Assembly (NCBI RefSeq): GCF_027118995.1
Contig: NZ_CP098242.1
Coordinates: 1,178,001 to 1,242,000 of the forward strand
Source: Oxalobacter vibrioformis
GTDB lineage: Bacteria > Pseudomonadota > Gammaproteobacteria > Burkholderiales > Burkholderiaceae_D
Direction of reading: 5' to 3'
DNA length: 64,000 nt
This document shows, one piece after another, positions 59,483 to 64,000 of this stretch. Position numbers and translations under genes: made by a program. Below the pieces are notes generated by a model that was not told where the DNA came from, did no database searches, and saw only the letters and a list, made by a program, of their open reading frames with translations. Positions within the stretch are counted from its first letter, which is position 1, and every line of letters starts with the position of its first letter.

Positions 59483-60418
59483 TCAATCCCCGAGCCGCAT
59501 CCCGATACACAAGTCATTCCGTCCGGCATACTCAGTCGCGGACATTTTTTTTGAATCCGCTGGACGAACGGTGGAAACCTCAATTTCCCCGCCATGGGCG
59601 GATATCCGGAAACTTTTTTCGCCTACAGCCGAAATAACGCCAATCTGACGGCCTTTTACACTCTGAAATGTTGGCGACAGATGCTTGCGTGCCCCATAAA
59701 GATGAATTTTTTTCCCGTTGAGTGTTGTCCATGCACCAGGAGCAGGGTCACTTCCGCGGATCAGGTTATAGACCAGATTGACATGCATATTCCAGTTGAT
59801 GCGGGCTTCTGTTGCGCGAAACCAGCCTTCATAGCTCGCCTGGGATTCGTCCTGCGGGGTTTCAACATGTCTGCCCGCTACAACCAGAGCTGCGGCTTCC
59901 AGCATGGCAGCAACACCCATGGGAAACAGCTGGTCAAAATAAATGCTGCCCAGCGTATCATCAGGCAAAATAGGGATTTTTTTCTGAAGGATGATCGGCC
60001 CCTCATCCATGCCATCGGTCGGGCGGAAGATAGTCAGCCCGGTTTCTCTTTCACCACAGACAATCGGCCAGTTGATCGAACTGGGGCCGCGGTATTTGGG
60101 CAAAAGGGAAGGGTGATACTGGATTGTGCCAAGCCGCGGGACATTGACGAAATTCTGTGGTGCAAACTGCAGGACAAACGCCATGATCCCGATATCCGCA
60201 TCCAGGCTCTTCATTGCATTTTCAGCCGCCGCATCCGTCAAATTGGGCATCTGGAATATCGGGATATTTCTTTTCTCTGCCTCAATTCGCAATGGGTCAG
60301 GAGACGCCCCCGGTTTTTCAGGTGCCGTAAAAACACCGGCAACCTCATCACCCCGCGCCAGGAATGCCTCCATGACGGCCTTCCCGAAAAGCTGCTGTCC
60401 AATAATGGCAATTCGCAT
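59483..60418 (-). CDS. Formyltransferase-fold protein, 10-formyl-THF hydrolase-like
   Basis: A 311-residue protein with an N-terminal formyltransferase domain (MRIAIIGQQLFG) and the catalytic HPSLLPKYRGPSSINW. The Asp segment DGMDEGPIILQKK is followed by a C-terminal OB-like domain. It resembles the formyl-THF-hydrolase part of 10-formyltetrahydrofolate dehydrogenase more than Fmt or sugar formyltransferases. It probably moves or releases the formyl group of 10-formyl-THF. The start ATG 60418 has AGGGAGGG 5 bp upstream, and this lies 12 bp after the poly-U of the frc terminator. A link to formyl-CoA metabolism is inferred from position only. Confidence 0.8.
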   Translation of the reverse strand: MRIAIIGQQLFGKAVMEAFLARGDEVAGVFTAPEKPGASPDPLRIEAEKRNIPIFQMPNLTDAAAENAMKSLDADIGIMAFVLQFAPQNFVNVPRLGTIQYHPSLLPKYRGPSSINWPIVCGERETGLTIFRPTDGMDEGPIILQKKIPILPDDTLGSIYFDQLFPMGVAAMLEAAALVVAGRHVETPQDESQASYEGWFRATEARINWNMHVNLVYNLIRGSDPAPGAWTTLNGKKIHLYGARKHLSPTFQSVKGRQIGVISAVGEKSFRISAHGGEIEVSTVRPADSKKMSATEYAGRNDLCIGMRLGD

Positions 60419-60439
60419 AAAACCCTCCCTAAAAAAAAC

Positions 60440-60465
60440 GGATGGGTGACTTTCGTCACCCATCC
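60440..60465 (-). terminator. Strong terminator downstream of frc
   Basis: GGATGGGTGAC and GTCACCCATCC form an 11-bp stem with a 4-nt loop and are followed by eight T on the minus strand (60431-60438). The T-run lies immediately upstream of the Shine-Dalgarno of the formyltransferase gene. Confidence 0.93.
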
Positions 60466-60521: not shown

Positions 60522-61811
60522 TTATTTTTTCGGCGGGAGGGTGTATGCACCAGCTTCTTTCAGCCTGTTGAAGTCAGCTTCGGAGAAACCACAAACATCT
60601 TTGGTGATTTGCTCGTTATGCTCACCCAGCCCTGGGGATGGGTACTTCTTGTCGACTTCACCGAGGGACAGTTTGACCGGCATACCAACGGTGTAGTAGT
60701 CACCTTCTGGATGGCCTTCAATCTTCGTCCACATTTCACGGTGCAATACGTGCGGATCAGCAACAACTTCTTCAGTTGAGAGAACCGGGCCGCATGGGAT
60801 GTCCAACTCATTGAAGCGTGCGGTGACTTCCTGCTTGGTGTAGTTCTTGGTGTACTCGGATACATATTTCCAGAACTCATGCTGGTTCTTGTTACGTGCA
60901 GCAGCAGGCGCAAAGCGCTCATCATCCGGCTCAAGACCGATTTCCTTCAGCAGAACAGGAACAACCGGTGCCTGGGCAACCATGTAGATGTAGTCGTTTG
61001 GACCAAATGGCTTACATGGGATTGCGTTACCGATATGGCCACCGCCGGAATCGTTAAGCGCACGTGGCACGTAGGTCAGACCCAGGGTTGGCGGGCCATA
61101 CTCGGCCAGCTCAGCGGTACCGCCCAGCAGACGAAGGTGGTCACGGAATTTAACACGGCACAGGTTCATGACAGAATCCTGCATCGCGGCTTCCACGATC
61201 TGGCCTTTGCCGCCATTGTGGGTACGATGATAGATCGCTGCAACGATACCCAGTGCCAGATGGACACCGGTACCACTGTCACCGATAAACGCGCCACTGA
61301 TGGTTGGAGGGCCGTTTGGATCACCGGTTACGGACATGGAGCCACCCATTGCCTGGGCAATCGGCTCATATGCCTTATAGTCAGAGTACGGGCCGGATGA
61401 ACCGAAACCCTTGATGGAGGCGATAACCAGACCTGGGTTGAGTTCCTGCAGTTTTTCATCCGGATAACCCAGACGTGTCAGCACGCCAGGACCGAAGTTG
61501 TCCATAATGACGTCGCATTTTCTGATCAGTTGTTCAAATACTTCCTGGCCAGCCTTGCTCTTCATGTTGACGGTGATGGAACGCTTGTTGGCGTTCAGCA
61601 TCTTGAAGTAGAAGCTTTCCTGACGCTTGCCGTCTACAACGTGTGCGAGCTGCTGACGGGTGATGTCACCAGTTGGTGCTTCAAACTTGATGACATCGGC
61701 TCCCAGCCATGCGAGCAGCTGGGATGAAGTTGGACCTGCCTGTACGTGCGTCATGTCAAGGACGCGTACGCCGGACAGTGCCTTATCTGTTGGGAGTGGA
61801 TAATTACCCAT
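60522..61811 (-). CDS. frc: Formyl-CoA:oxalate CoA-transferase-like class III CoA-transferase
   Basis: A 429-residue class III CoA-transferase, near the length of Oxalobacter FRC (428). It keeps the catalytic Asp (D178, GDSGTG) and Gln (Q24, THVQAGP), GDITRQQ, NANKRSI, and ends with SPGLGEHNEQ. Where FRC has Trp48 it has Gln (Q54), as in E. coli YfdW. The glycine loop is DSGGGHIGN (GGGH at 256-259) instead of GGGGQ. Oxalate or formate is the likely substrate, but another small carboxylate is possible. The ATG 61811 has GGAGG 10 bp upstream. Lys is mostly AAG and Arg often CGT, unlike the AAA-rich neighbours, which suggests high expression. Confidence 0.85.
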   Translation of the reverse strand: MGNYPLPTDKALSGVRVLDMTHVQAGPTSSQLLAWLGADVIKFEAPTGDITRQQLAHVVDGKRQESFYFKMLNANKRSITVNMKSKAGQEVFEQLIRKCDVIMDNFGPGVLTRLGYPDEKLQELNPGLVIASIKGFGSSGPYSDYKAYEPIAQAMGGSMSVTGDPNGPPTISGAFIGDSGTGVHLALGIVAAIYHRTHNGGKGQIVEAAMQDSVMNLCRVKFRDHLRLLGGTAELAEYGPPTLGLTYVPRALNDSGGGHIGNAIPCKPFGPNDYIYMVAQAPVVPVLLKEIGLEPDDERFAPAAARNKNQHEFWKYVSEYTKNYTKQEVTARFNELDIPCGPVLSTEEVVADPHVLHREMWTKIEGHPEGDYYTVGMPVKLSLGEVDKKYPSPGLGEHNEQITKDVCGFSEADFNRLKEAGAYTLPPKK

Positions 61812-61989
61812 GATGTGTTTTCCTCCAATTATTGGTGTGTGCGCTGTTAAATACAACTCCCTTTTGCCAAAGGAAACTACATCTTTACTCCCTTAGCAAA
61901 GGGCAAACCAGATGACCTTAATACCTGACAGGTTCCCTTCTCTTTGCAGTGTTACTACAATTACCCATCAAATATCCAAGCTGGTTGCT

Positions 61990-61995
61990 ATCATA
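61990..61995 (-). promoter_or_regulatory. Predicted -10 element of the frc promoter
   Basis: TATGAT on the minus strand predicts initiation near 61983. The FNR-like box at 62019-62032 is then centred near -42, and no -35 hexamer is evident, which fits an activator-dependent class II promoter. Confidence 0.55.
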
Positions 61996-62018
61996 GCCGT
62001 TTCCGACCGGATATATTC

Positions 62019-62032
62019 TTGATTCAGGTCAA
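62019..62032. promoter_or_regulatory. FNR-like box 1 (frc-proximal)
   Basis: TTGATTCAGGTCAA matches the FNR consensus TTGAT-N4-ATCAA at nine of ten positions. It lies about 42 bp upstream of the predicted frc start site. Confidence 0.65.
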
Positions 62033-62058
62033 TTTTCTCATTTAGAACCCTCCAGATC

Positions 62059-62072
62059 TTGATCTTTGTCAA
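62059..62072. promoter_or_regulatory. FNR-like box 2 (regulator-proximal)
   Basis: TTGATCTTTGTCAA matches the FNR consensus at nine of ten positions. It is exactly 40 bp (about four helical turns) from box 1 and 52-65 bp upstream of the Crp/Fnr-family gene, where it could mediate autoregulation. Confidence 0.65.
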
Positions 62073-62123
62073 TTTTTTTGAGATGCTTCGCTATGTGATA
62101 TCAAAACAGCAGGTTGAATATTC

Positions 62124-62732
62124 ATGGCATTAATCGCAAACCACCCTGAAAAAAACATTATTCGTGTGCAGCTTTCCCAAAACTGCATATTGAAAGAATT
62201 GACACAACAGGAGTTGCTGGAGCTTGAGCCGCACCTGGATGTGACAGACCATGTCAAGGGAGATTGCCTGACACACCAGGGCGATCGTGATCTGGATGTG
62301 ATATTTGTCCTGGACGGCATCCTGAAAAGAGCCGTTGCCAACCAGCATGCAAAAGAAATGATCCTGCGTTTCACCAGTGAACGCTATATGGAGGCGACCT
62401 ACGCATCATGGCGACTGAACAAGGCGGCATCATTCAGTATTATTGCGGTGACAAAAACCCGGGTTGCCCGGATTGCCATGCCGGCATGGTCAGCCTATAT
62501 TCAGGACAAACCCAAGTTAAAACAATTCTTTGAGCTGGAAGTCATGCGTATCATGAGCAGTATCATGTCACATACCATTACACTGCACCTTCTGGATGCT
62601 CCGGGCCGGGTACACCGTTTTCTGCGAAAACATCCTGACCTCTTTGATCGTATGCCGAAAAAAGAGCTGGCATCCTATCTGAATCTTTCCCCGGAAACAC
62701 TGAGCCGCCTGAAAAACCAGGGAAAAATTTAA
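62124..62732 (+). CDS. Crp/Fnr family transcriptional regulator
   Basis: A 202-residue regulator with an N-terminal cyclic-nucleotide-binding-like beta-roll (about 20-115), a dimer helix (about 120-150) and a C-terminal winged HTH ending MPKKELASYLNLSPETLSRLK. Recognition-helix residues E191, S194 and R195 match the FNR E-xx-SR set for TTGAT half-sites. Only two Cys (21 and 48) are present in the sensing part, too few and misplaced for an FNR iron-sulfur cluster, so the signal is unknown. It is divergent from frc and about 260 bp from the OFA antiporter gene, and is the obvious candidate regulator of both. Confidence 0.85.
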   Translation: MALIANHPEKNIIRVQLSQNCILKELTQQELLELEPHLDVTDHVKGDCLTHQGDRDLDVIFVLDGILKRAVANQHAKEMILRFTSERYMEATYASWRLNKAASFSIIAVTKTRVARIAMPAWSAYIQDKPKLKQFFELEVMRIMSSIMSHTITLHLLDAPGRVHRFLRKHPDLFDRMPKKELASYLNLSPETLSRLKNQGKI

Positions 62733-62990: not shown

Positions 62991-64000
62991 TTATGCTGCT
63001 GCTTTCGCTTCTAAAGCCTCAACCTCTGCATTGTTGCCGAGGATGAAGCGACGACGCCATGGCTTCAGTACGAAGAAGGACAGGATCGAGCAGGTGAATG
63101 CGATACATGCGGAAAGGATAAACACGCGATCCCAGTTACCGCCGGCCGAGAGGCCTGCTGCAAACGGAACCAGCAGTGAGGATGTCCCTTTTGCTGTATA
63201 CAGTGTACCTGCGTTACCCGCCGCGTTTGCCACACCGAAGGTGTCAGCACACATGGATGGGAACAGTGAGAAGATCTCGCCCCAGAATGCGAAGGTCAGC
63301 GCTGCGAAGAGCATAAAGCCGAACGGTGTGCGACCATAAGCCATCAGACCGAGCAGTGCGAAGCCTTCACCCATGAACACCAGGAACATGATGTTTTCAC
63401 GGCCGAAACGATCAGAGAGATAACCGCAAAGTGGACGTGTCGCACCGTTAGCAATGTTGTCGATCGACATTGCCATCGTCAGCAGTGGCAGGGTAACACC
63501 CATCAGGGTTACCGGGATACGGGAAAGACCGTAGTCACGGGAAACCGGACCGAAGGAAGCCGTTGCCATAATACCGCCAGAAGCAACACCCACGAAGCAG
63601 ACATAAATCAGCCAGAAGATCGGCTGTCTCATGATTTGAGTCGGGGTGAACTCTTTCTTACTGGATACAACACGCGGCACAGCCTTGGTGCCTGGCGGCA
63701 GCTTGGCACGTGGCATGAAGATCGCGCAGATACAGATGATGATGCCCTGGAGGATACCGAATACCAGAAAGGTCTGCTCGTAGCCGGAGCTGTTGATCAT
63801 GGAAGCAACCGGAATAACGGTAATAGCAGCACCACCACCGAAACCGGCAGCTGTTGCACCCGCAGCAAGACCGCGCTTGTCCGGGAACCATTTCAGCGCA
63901 TTACCCACCGCAGTACCGTAAACAGCACCAGCACCCATACCGGTGATGACGGAAGCGATATACAGTACAGTCAGAGTGGAGGCATAGGAATACATGATCC
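62991..64000 (-). CDS. oxlT: OFA-family (oxalate/formate antiporter) MFS carrier, C-terminal part
   Basis: About 335 codons are present; the reading frame stays open past 64000, so the first helices and the start are missing. It has at least eight membrane segments, KWFPDKRGLAAGATAAGFG, and the segments GATRPLCGYLSDRFGRE and TLYTAKGTSSLL. The latter two align with those carrying Arg272 and Lys355 in OxlT, both kept. OxlT exchanges oxalate for formate and so drives proton motive force. The sequence is clearly divergent from the classical OxlT, so oxlT is a family-level symbol and the substrate may differ. Its codon use resembles that of frc (AAG- and CGT-rich). Confidence 0.82.
   Translation of the reverse strand, partial: IMYSYASTLTVLYIASVITGMGAGAVYGTAVGNALKWFPDKRGLAAGATAAGFGGGAAITVIPVASMINSSGYEQTFLVFGILQGIIICICAIFMPRAKLPPGTKAVPRVVSSKKEFTPTQIMRQPIFWLIYVCFVGVASGGIMATASFGPVSRDYGLSRIPVTLMGVTLPLLTMAMSIDNIANGATRPLCGYLSDRFGRENIMFLVFMGEGFALLGLMAYGRTPFGFMLFAALTFAFWGEIFSLFPSMCADTFGVANAAGNAGTLYTAKGTSSLLVPFAAGLSAGGNWDRVFILSACIAFTCSILSFFVLKPWRRRFILGNNAEVEALEAKAAA

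Follow-up and report, generated by a model that had tools for sequence, protein, structure and literature searches.

Oxalobacter is a specialist oxalate degrader of the gut and is linked to kidney-stone risk, and the locus described here raises the question of which protein reads the two palindromic boxes that lie between one of its oxalate genes and a divergently transcribed regulator gene. The window (the whole 64,000-base stretch that was analysed) comprises bases 1178001-1242000 of the one-contig, 2,606,300-base genome of Oxalobacter vibrioformis (G000), and the boxes are located near its end between an frc-like gene, frc2, and the gene of a 202-amino acid (aa) protein with a predicted Crp/Fnr fold. 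Comparison of this region within the genus and across the Oxalobacteraceae suggests that the boxes are probably operators of the 202-aa protein, a putative regulator dedicated to oxalate catabolism in this family. The best reading of the sequences is that the regulator activates oxc and frc and probably represses itself. The features concerned, in window coordinates, are as follows.

60522-61811, minus strand: frc2, frc-like gene for a class III CoA-transferase of 429 aa; proposed target
61990-61995, minus strand: TATGAT, -10 of frc2; starts 30 positions beyond the centre of box 1
62010-62018, minus strand: GAATATATC element between box 1 and the -10; a similar form occurs in Oxalobacter frc2 and frc1 promoters
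62019-62032, no strand assigned: box 1, TTGATTCAGGTCAA, centre 62025.5; class II-like site for frc2
62059-62072, no strand assigned: box 2, TTGATCTTTGTCAA, centre 62065.5; adjoins the regulator gene
62059-62064: TTGATC, left half of box 2, positioned like a -35 of the regulator gene
62082-62087, plus strand: GATGCT, a weak candidate for the -10 of the regulator gene; separated from TTGATC by 17 base pairs (bp)
62124-62732, plus strand: Crp/Fnr-fold regulator, 202 aa; proposed binder of both boxes
62991-63998, minus strand: oxlT-type oxalate/formate antiporter gene (TIGR04259, 413.7 bits; cut-off 335), truncated by the window end

The two box centres are 40 bp apart, as a first-pass annotation of this DNA had reported, and what it described on the frc2 side was likewise found in place. 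The predicted frc2 start is base 61983, 7 bases beyond the minus-strand TATGAT (61995-61990), so that box 1 is centred near -42, and AAGAAT, the hexamer 17 bp upstream of TATGAT, does not qualify as a -35. A class II activator site has its centre near -41.5, adjoins the -10 and lacks a -35. The frc2 ATG is at 61811, giving a predicted leader of ~172 nucleotides; the product scored 472 bits with NF003809 (cut-off 442) and 452.7 bits with TIGR03253, whose cut-off of 504.2 was not reached. GATGCT is proposed as the -10 of the regulator gene because a CATGAT-type -10 occupies the same place in other genera.

Conservation of the boxes and of their distance to promoters

Within the genus, the regulator was detected in 9 of 13 genomes, all nine of which carry box 1 as a perfect palindrome, while box 2 is perfect in eight of them and lost in G011. 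The four middle bases vary at these boxes while the palindromes persist, and TATGAT was found at identical spacing in 8/8 aligned frc2 loci. The first-pass annotation had proposed looking for the box before oxc, and it was found there: all 12 genomes with that promoter assembled have a perfect box (the count leaves out G003, which holds the 3′ part of the gene only), and the oxc -10, CATACT or CATAAT, begins at position +30 relative to the box centre in nine genomes and at +29 in three. The oxc of O. vibrioformis passes Oxc models. Four oxc boxes, one every 24 bp, were observed in O. formigenes HC-1 (G001:C1:598308-598393) and O. paraformigenes HOxBLS (G004:C2:15641-15726), where only the last box holds the class II distance. 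Upstream of oxlT, a one-mismatch box of the form TTGACNNNNRTCAT was present in the six genomes checked, with a CACAAT- or CAAAAT-type -10 starting at +29 as read from the sequences; for the oxlT of O. vibrioformis this box falls beyond the window end. The frc1 stretches of G000, G009, G010, and G011, which were selected for having a box, show TATGAT at +30 and a box 189-441 bp before the gene match. Overall, counting fragments as well as whole genes, a perfect box lies within 450 bp upstream of 12 of 23 frc-related stretches, and a class II box also stands in front of an operon of a thiamine diphosphate (ThDP) enzyme gene and frc in G001 and G004. The top models for the G001 ThDP enzyme were those of acetolactate synthase and 2-hydroxyacyl-CoA lyase, both below cut-off, so this enzyme is not Oxc. 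In O. paraformigenes (G004:C1:143292-143838) the frc2 beside the intact regulator gene matches in two end pieces only, residues 9-89 and 363-429, and thus looks broken in sequence, while both boxes and the regulator persist.

Across the family, a profile of eight orthologues was searched against 245 Oxalobacteraceae genomes, and regulator orthologues were detected in 63 of these, representing 22 of 44 genera. Boxes and neighbours were read at the 55 regulator loci outside Oxalobacter, that is, in regulator-bearing genomes, and a perfect box was present within 350 bp upstream in 53 of them; in these family boxes the half-sites are constant and the four-base middle occurs in 26 kinds. Locus L250 has a box with one mismatch. 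L248 (G035) alone among the orthologues outside Oxalobacter lacks both a box and, in the stretch analysed, an oxalate gene, and may be a paralogue that serves another function. At 31 loci the divergent neighbour is oxc, at eight it is frc, and at nine it encodes a ThDP enzyme with 25-40% identity to Oxc (in four of these, frc comes next in the stretch analysed); at one locus oxlT and frc are near and not directly divergent, one has none, and at five the contig end is too close. Divergent oxc or frc was therefore found at 39 of 50 testable loci. Oxalobacter oxalate genes are also borne by JAMPER010000001.1 (L155), titled as an Alistipes senegalensis metagenome bin, a title that is probably wrong.

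Outside the genus, a single box is present at 47 loci and a pair at six. Merging identical sequences left 44 sequences towards oxc/frc and 45 towards the regulator, which were scored for a -10, defined as at least 4/6 matches to TATAAT with A in the second and T in the last position. On the oxc/frc side, 43 of 44 sequences have a -10 starting at +30 relative to the box centre (the next best offset is found in 4 sequences); on the regulator side, 41 of 45 single-box sequences have one at +16, which places the left half TTGACC as a -35 with a 17-bp spacer. Judged by sequence, then, the single palindrome is a predicted class II site in one direction and overlies a putative core promoter in the other. 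With starts being predicted, the geometry of a class II site holds for the 43/44 single-box sequences and for 8/8 Oxalobacter frc2 loci. The two-box arrangement of Oxalobacter recurs at the three loci of genus g41, where the boxes are separated by 38-40 bp; at three g39 loci the separation is 98-107 bp, and each of the two boxes is followed towards oxc by TATGAT or TATCAT at +30. The overlap of the box with the regulator core promoter in 41/45 single-box relatives argues for self-repression, and on this point the first-pass annotation, which had suggested an activator at both promoters, was not upheld. Its observation is confirmed and its interpretation is partly supported.

The 202-aa protein as candidate binder

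The predicted fold of the regulator comprises the cyclic-nucleotide-binding-type beta barrel, the long dimerisation helix, and the C-terminal helix-turn-helix that define the Crp/Fnr superfamily, and the Pfam scores are under the cut-off (PF00027, 22.9 bits; PF13545, 21 bits). The best reading is a Crp/Fnr-fold protein that is neither FNR nor CRP; the fold comparison covers the matches listed by Foldseek and VIA, and families outside these may also fit. FNR-type proteins recognise TTGA-N6-TCAA sites through E-x-x-S-R in the recognition helix. The residues E191, S194, and R195 are present, as had been noted from the sequence before, an ETLSR recognition helix is found at 62 of the 63 regulator loci, and helix and boxes together predict FNR-type binding. 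In FNR proper, cysteines hold a [4Fe-4S] cluster. In an alignment of 62 regulator homologues no cysteine occupies an invariant or nearly invariant column (C21 is invariant, but only among the eight Oxalobacter sequences), so that an FNR-type Fe-S cluster is not expected and the protein does not class with FNR proper, in line with the missing cluster cysteines of the first-pass annotation. CRP contacts cyclic AMP through a Glu and an Arg in the barrel. In one pairwise alignment Thr and Ala of the regulator face these residues, which does not fit a CRP responsive to cyclic AMP.

Apart from the cysteines, the regulator differs from FNR (Aliivibrio fischeri structures, e.g., 5E44 and 9QLY) in its ~20% identity and its linkage to oxalate genes, and from CRP (E. 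coli and mycobacterial) in the DNA half-site as well as in the Thr/Ala pair. The best match among solved structures was 3DN7, a short Bacteroidota Crp/Fnr protein of Cytophaga hutchinsonii (E 7.4e-10, residues 27-198), with an alignment that also stops at the recognition helix, whereas identity is low and host phylum and gene context are different. FixK/DNR-type regulators have nitrogen or oxygen-cascade targets, and the 202-aa protein differs from these cluster-free proteins (FixK2, 4I2O) by its presumed oxalate-gene targets. A plasmid search returned distant relatives only (18 records, all <60% identity).

Observations against the operator model and competing explanations

Several observations weigh against the 202-aa protein as the operator-bound regulator of these genes. 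At box 2 the regulator-side hexamers of seven Oxalobacter loci are GATGCT (three), AGCGTT (two), CATGCT (one), and GGCGTT (one), none of which is a good -10, and self-repression in Oxalobacter is for this reason the weakest part of the model. Eleven of the 23 frc-related stretches have no perfect box within 450 bp upstream: all seven of an frc type with 41-45% identity (L071, L072, L073, L074, L081, L082, L085), and four genes or fragments that come second, after a ThDP-enzyme gene (L068, L069, L070, L084). A regulon of all frc genes was rejected on this count. Of the ThDP-enzyme/frc operons to which these four belong, those of G001 and G004 are the ones preceded by a class II box, and those of G005 and G007 have no box within 500 bp; the ThDP genes of G010 and G000 are likewise without one. 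Upstream of the boxless 41-45% frc in G001, G004, G005, G006, and G007 lies a gene for a PAS/AAA+ regulator (the PAS/sigma-54-interaction/Fis-type assignment being Pfam-confirmed only for G001, where the gene precedes L085, the frc gene of 41% identity), so that another control may act there. Lastly, G005, G006, and G007 keep perfect oxc boxes, and neither the regulator nor another Crp/Fnr protein was detected in them. In G005 unrelated genes directly follow oxlT with no gap, but one contig begins inside an frc copy; G007 has frc copies truncated at contig ends, and a contig ends past pyk in G006 and near pyk in G007; with such breaks in or near frc copies the absence is uncertain, and the gene may be unassembled. 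A true loss in G002 was not supported, as in this assembly a 100-N gap follows oxlT at the place where the sister assembly G008 has the regulator.

The genome of O. vibrioformis itself contains more boxes than those at oxalate genes. TTGATNNNNGTCAA has eight sites as compared to one for the reversed control, and the looser TTGAYNNNNRTCAA has 16 as compared to five, about threefold. Four of these 16 belong to oxalate genes, namely the two boxes of frc2, the oxc box and a site upstream of frc1; two more are near a presumed nrdD and one is upstream of a presumed pflB, these and other gene names at genome sites being a reading of translations without a family search; the remaining nine appear scattered, and some genome sites are in coding or mobile DNA. 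Random scatter had been named by the first-pass annotation as speaking against its reading, and that test gives a divided answer, with scattered hits present and the oxalate genes also carrying boxes. Two boxes 20 bp apart (G000:C1:40674-40707) upstream of a presumed anaerobic ribonucleotide reductase gene overlap the end of the next gene, and two of the nine scattered sites, G000:C1:859371-859384 and G000:C1:2513364-2513377, are exact copies of the oxc box TTGATCTAGGTCAA, in regions that look mobile or unannotated.

A further unfavourable point is a second FNR-type protein, of 321 aa, whose ETVSRT helix would presumably fit TTGA-N6-TCAA and could recognise sites similar to the boxes. Its gene (G000:C1:693026-693991; L019:727-1692) raises the explanation, which we consider unlikely, that the boxes are bound mainly by this protein as a more global regulator. 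The protein is present in G000, G001, G002, G003, G004, G008, G009, and G012, and the genes nrdD and pflB are typical FNR targets, so that the boxes near their presumed counterparts are compatible with an anaerobic regulon. However, the boxes accompany the 202-aa gene and oxalate genes across many genera, and a PF00027 search misses the 321-aa protein in the box-bearing G010 and G011 (assemblies 76% and 87% complete). The idea that the 321-aa protein has lost the FNR cysteines was rejected: two cysteines are common to the query and all of the 120 listed homologues (121 aligned sequences), which marks it as a distinct Crp/Fnr type of its own. Somewhat less likely again is recognition of the palindrome by a DNA-binding protein from a different family, with the 202-aa protein being no more than a neighbour. 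The perfect oxc boxes of G005-G007, where no Crp/Fnr protein was detected, would suit such a protein; against this, the broken contigs of these assemblies and the N run of G002 at the expected place may hide the regulator, and palindromes like these, placed at the class II distance, are usual for Crp/Fnr proteins. That the boxes are palindromes arisen by chance from -35-like TTGAC words is strongly disfavoured and scarcely credible, for although TTGACC does act as a -35-like hexamer on the regulator side and the loose-pattern enrichment is modest, the half-sites are constant around varied middles, the -10 spacing is fixed, and a first-order Markov null placed a box in just 182 of 126000 simulated 250-bp upstream stretches. 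As judged from the sequences compared, conservation is a stronger argument against chance than genome-wide enrichment; the 53/55 set beside the Markov null yields no p-value, because the loci share descent and the counts are not independent.

A proposed circuit for oxalate genes

Returning to the 202-aa regulator as the binder, a simple circuit can be proposed. At box 1 the regulator would sit ~42 bp before the frc2 start and act as a class II activator, and an identical arrangement upstream of oxc, of one kind of frc1 and, in weaker form, of oxlT would join uptake, CoA transfer and decarboxylation in one regulon. At box 2 it would cover its own core promoter and so limit its own synthesis, while in most relatives a single palindrome may do both jobs. 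The effector would be a metabolite of the oxalate pathway (oxalate, oxalyl-CoA, formyl-CoA or formate) rather than being an Fe-S cluster or cyclic AMP. In full, and only tentatively, the model is that of a metabolite-gated Crp/Fnr regulator of oxalate genes whose palindrome may serve as the class II site of oxc/frc and as the -35 of the regulator's own promoter, the two roles being split over two boxes in Oxalobacter and its relatives of genus g41. Adjoining frc2 is a formyltransferase-like gene (window 59483-60463, minus strand), below all NCBIfam cut-offs; it has a counterpart beside frc in O. formigenes and possibly serves formyl handling.

In the open-access literature we found no Crp/Fnr-type regulator of Oxalobacter oxalate genes, subscription literature lying mostly outside the scope of the search. 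Term searches found neither ‘regulator’ nor ‘promoter’ in the main text of PMC9812493; PMC4764995 discusses other regulators and lacks ‘Crp’ and ‘promoter’, and PMC10192776 mentions none of regulator, Crp, Fnr, LysR, GntR, or operon. The conserved layout points to one protein, one operator, and a short list of targets, and the control of oxalate breakdown would thereby become directly testable, culturable aerobic relatives included.
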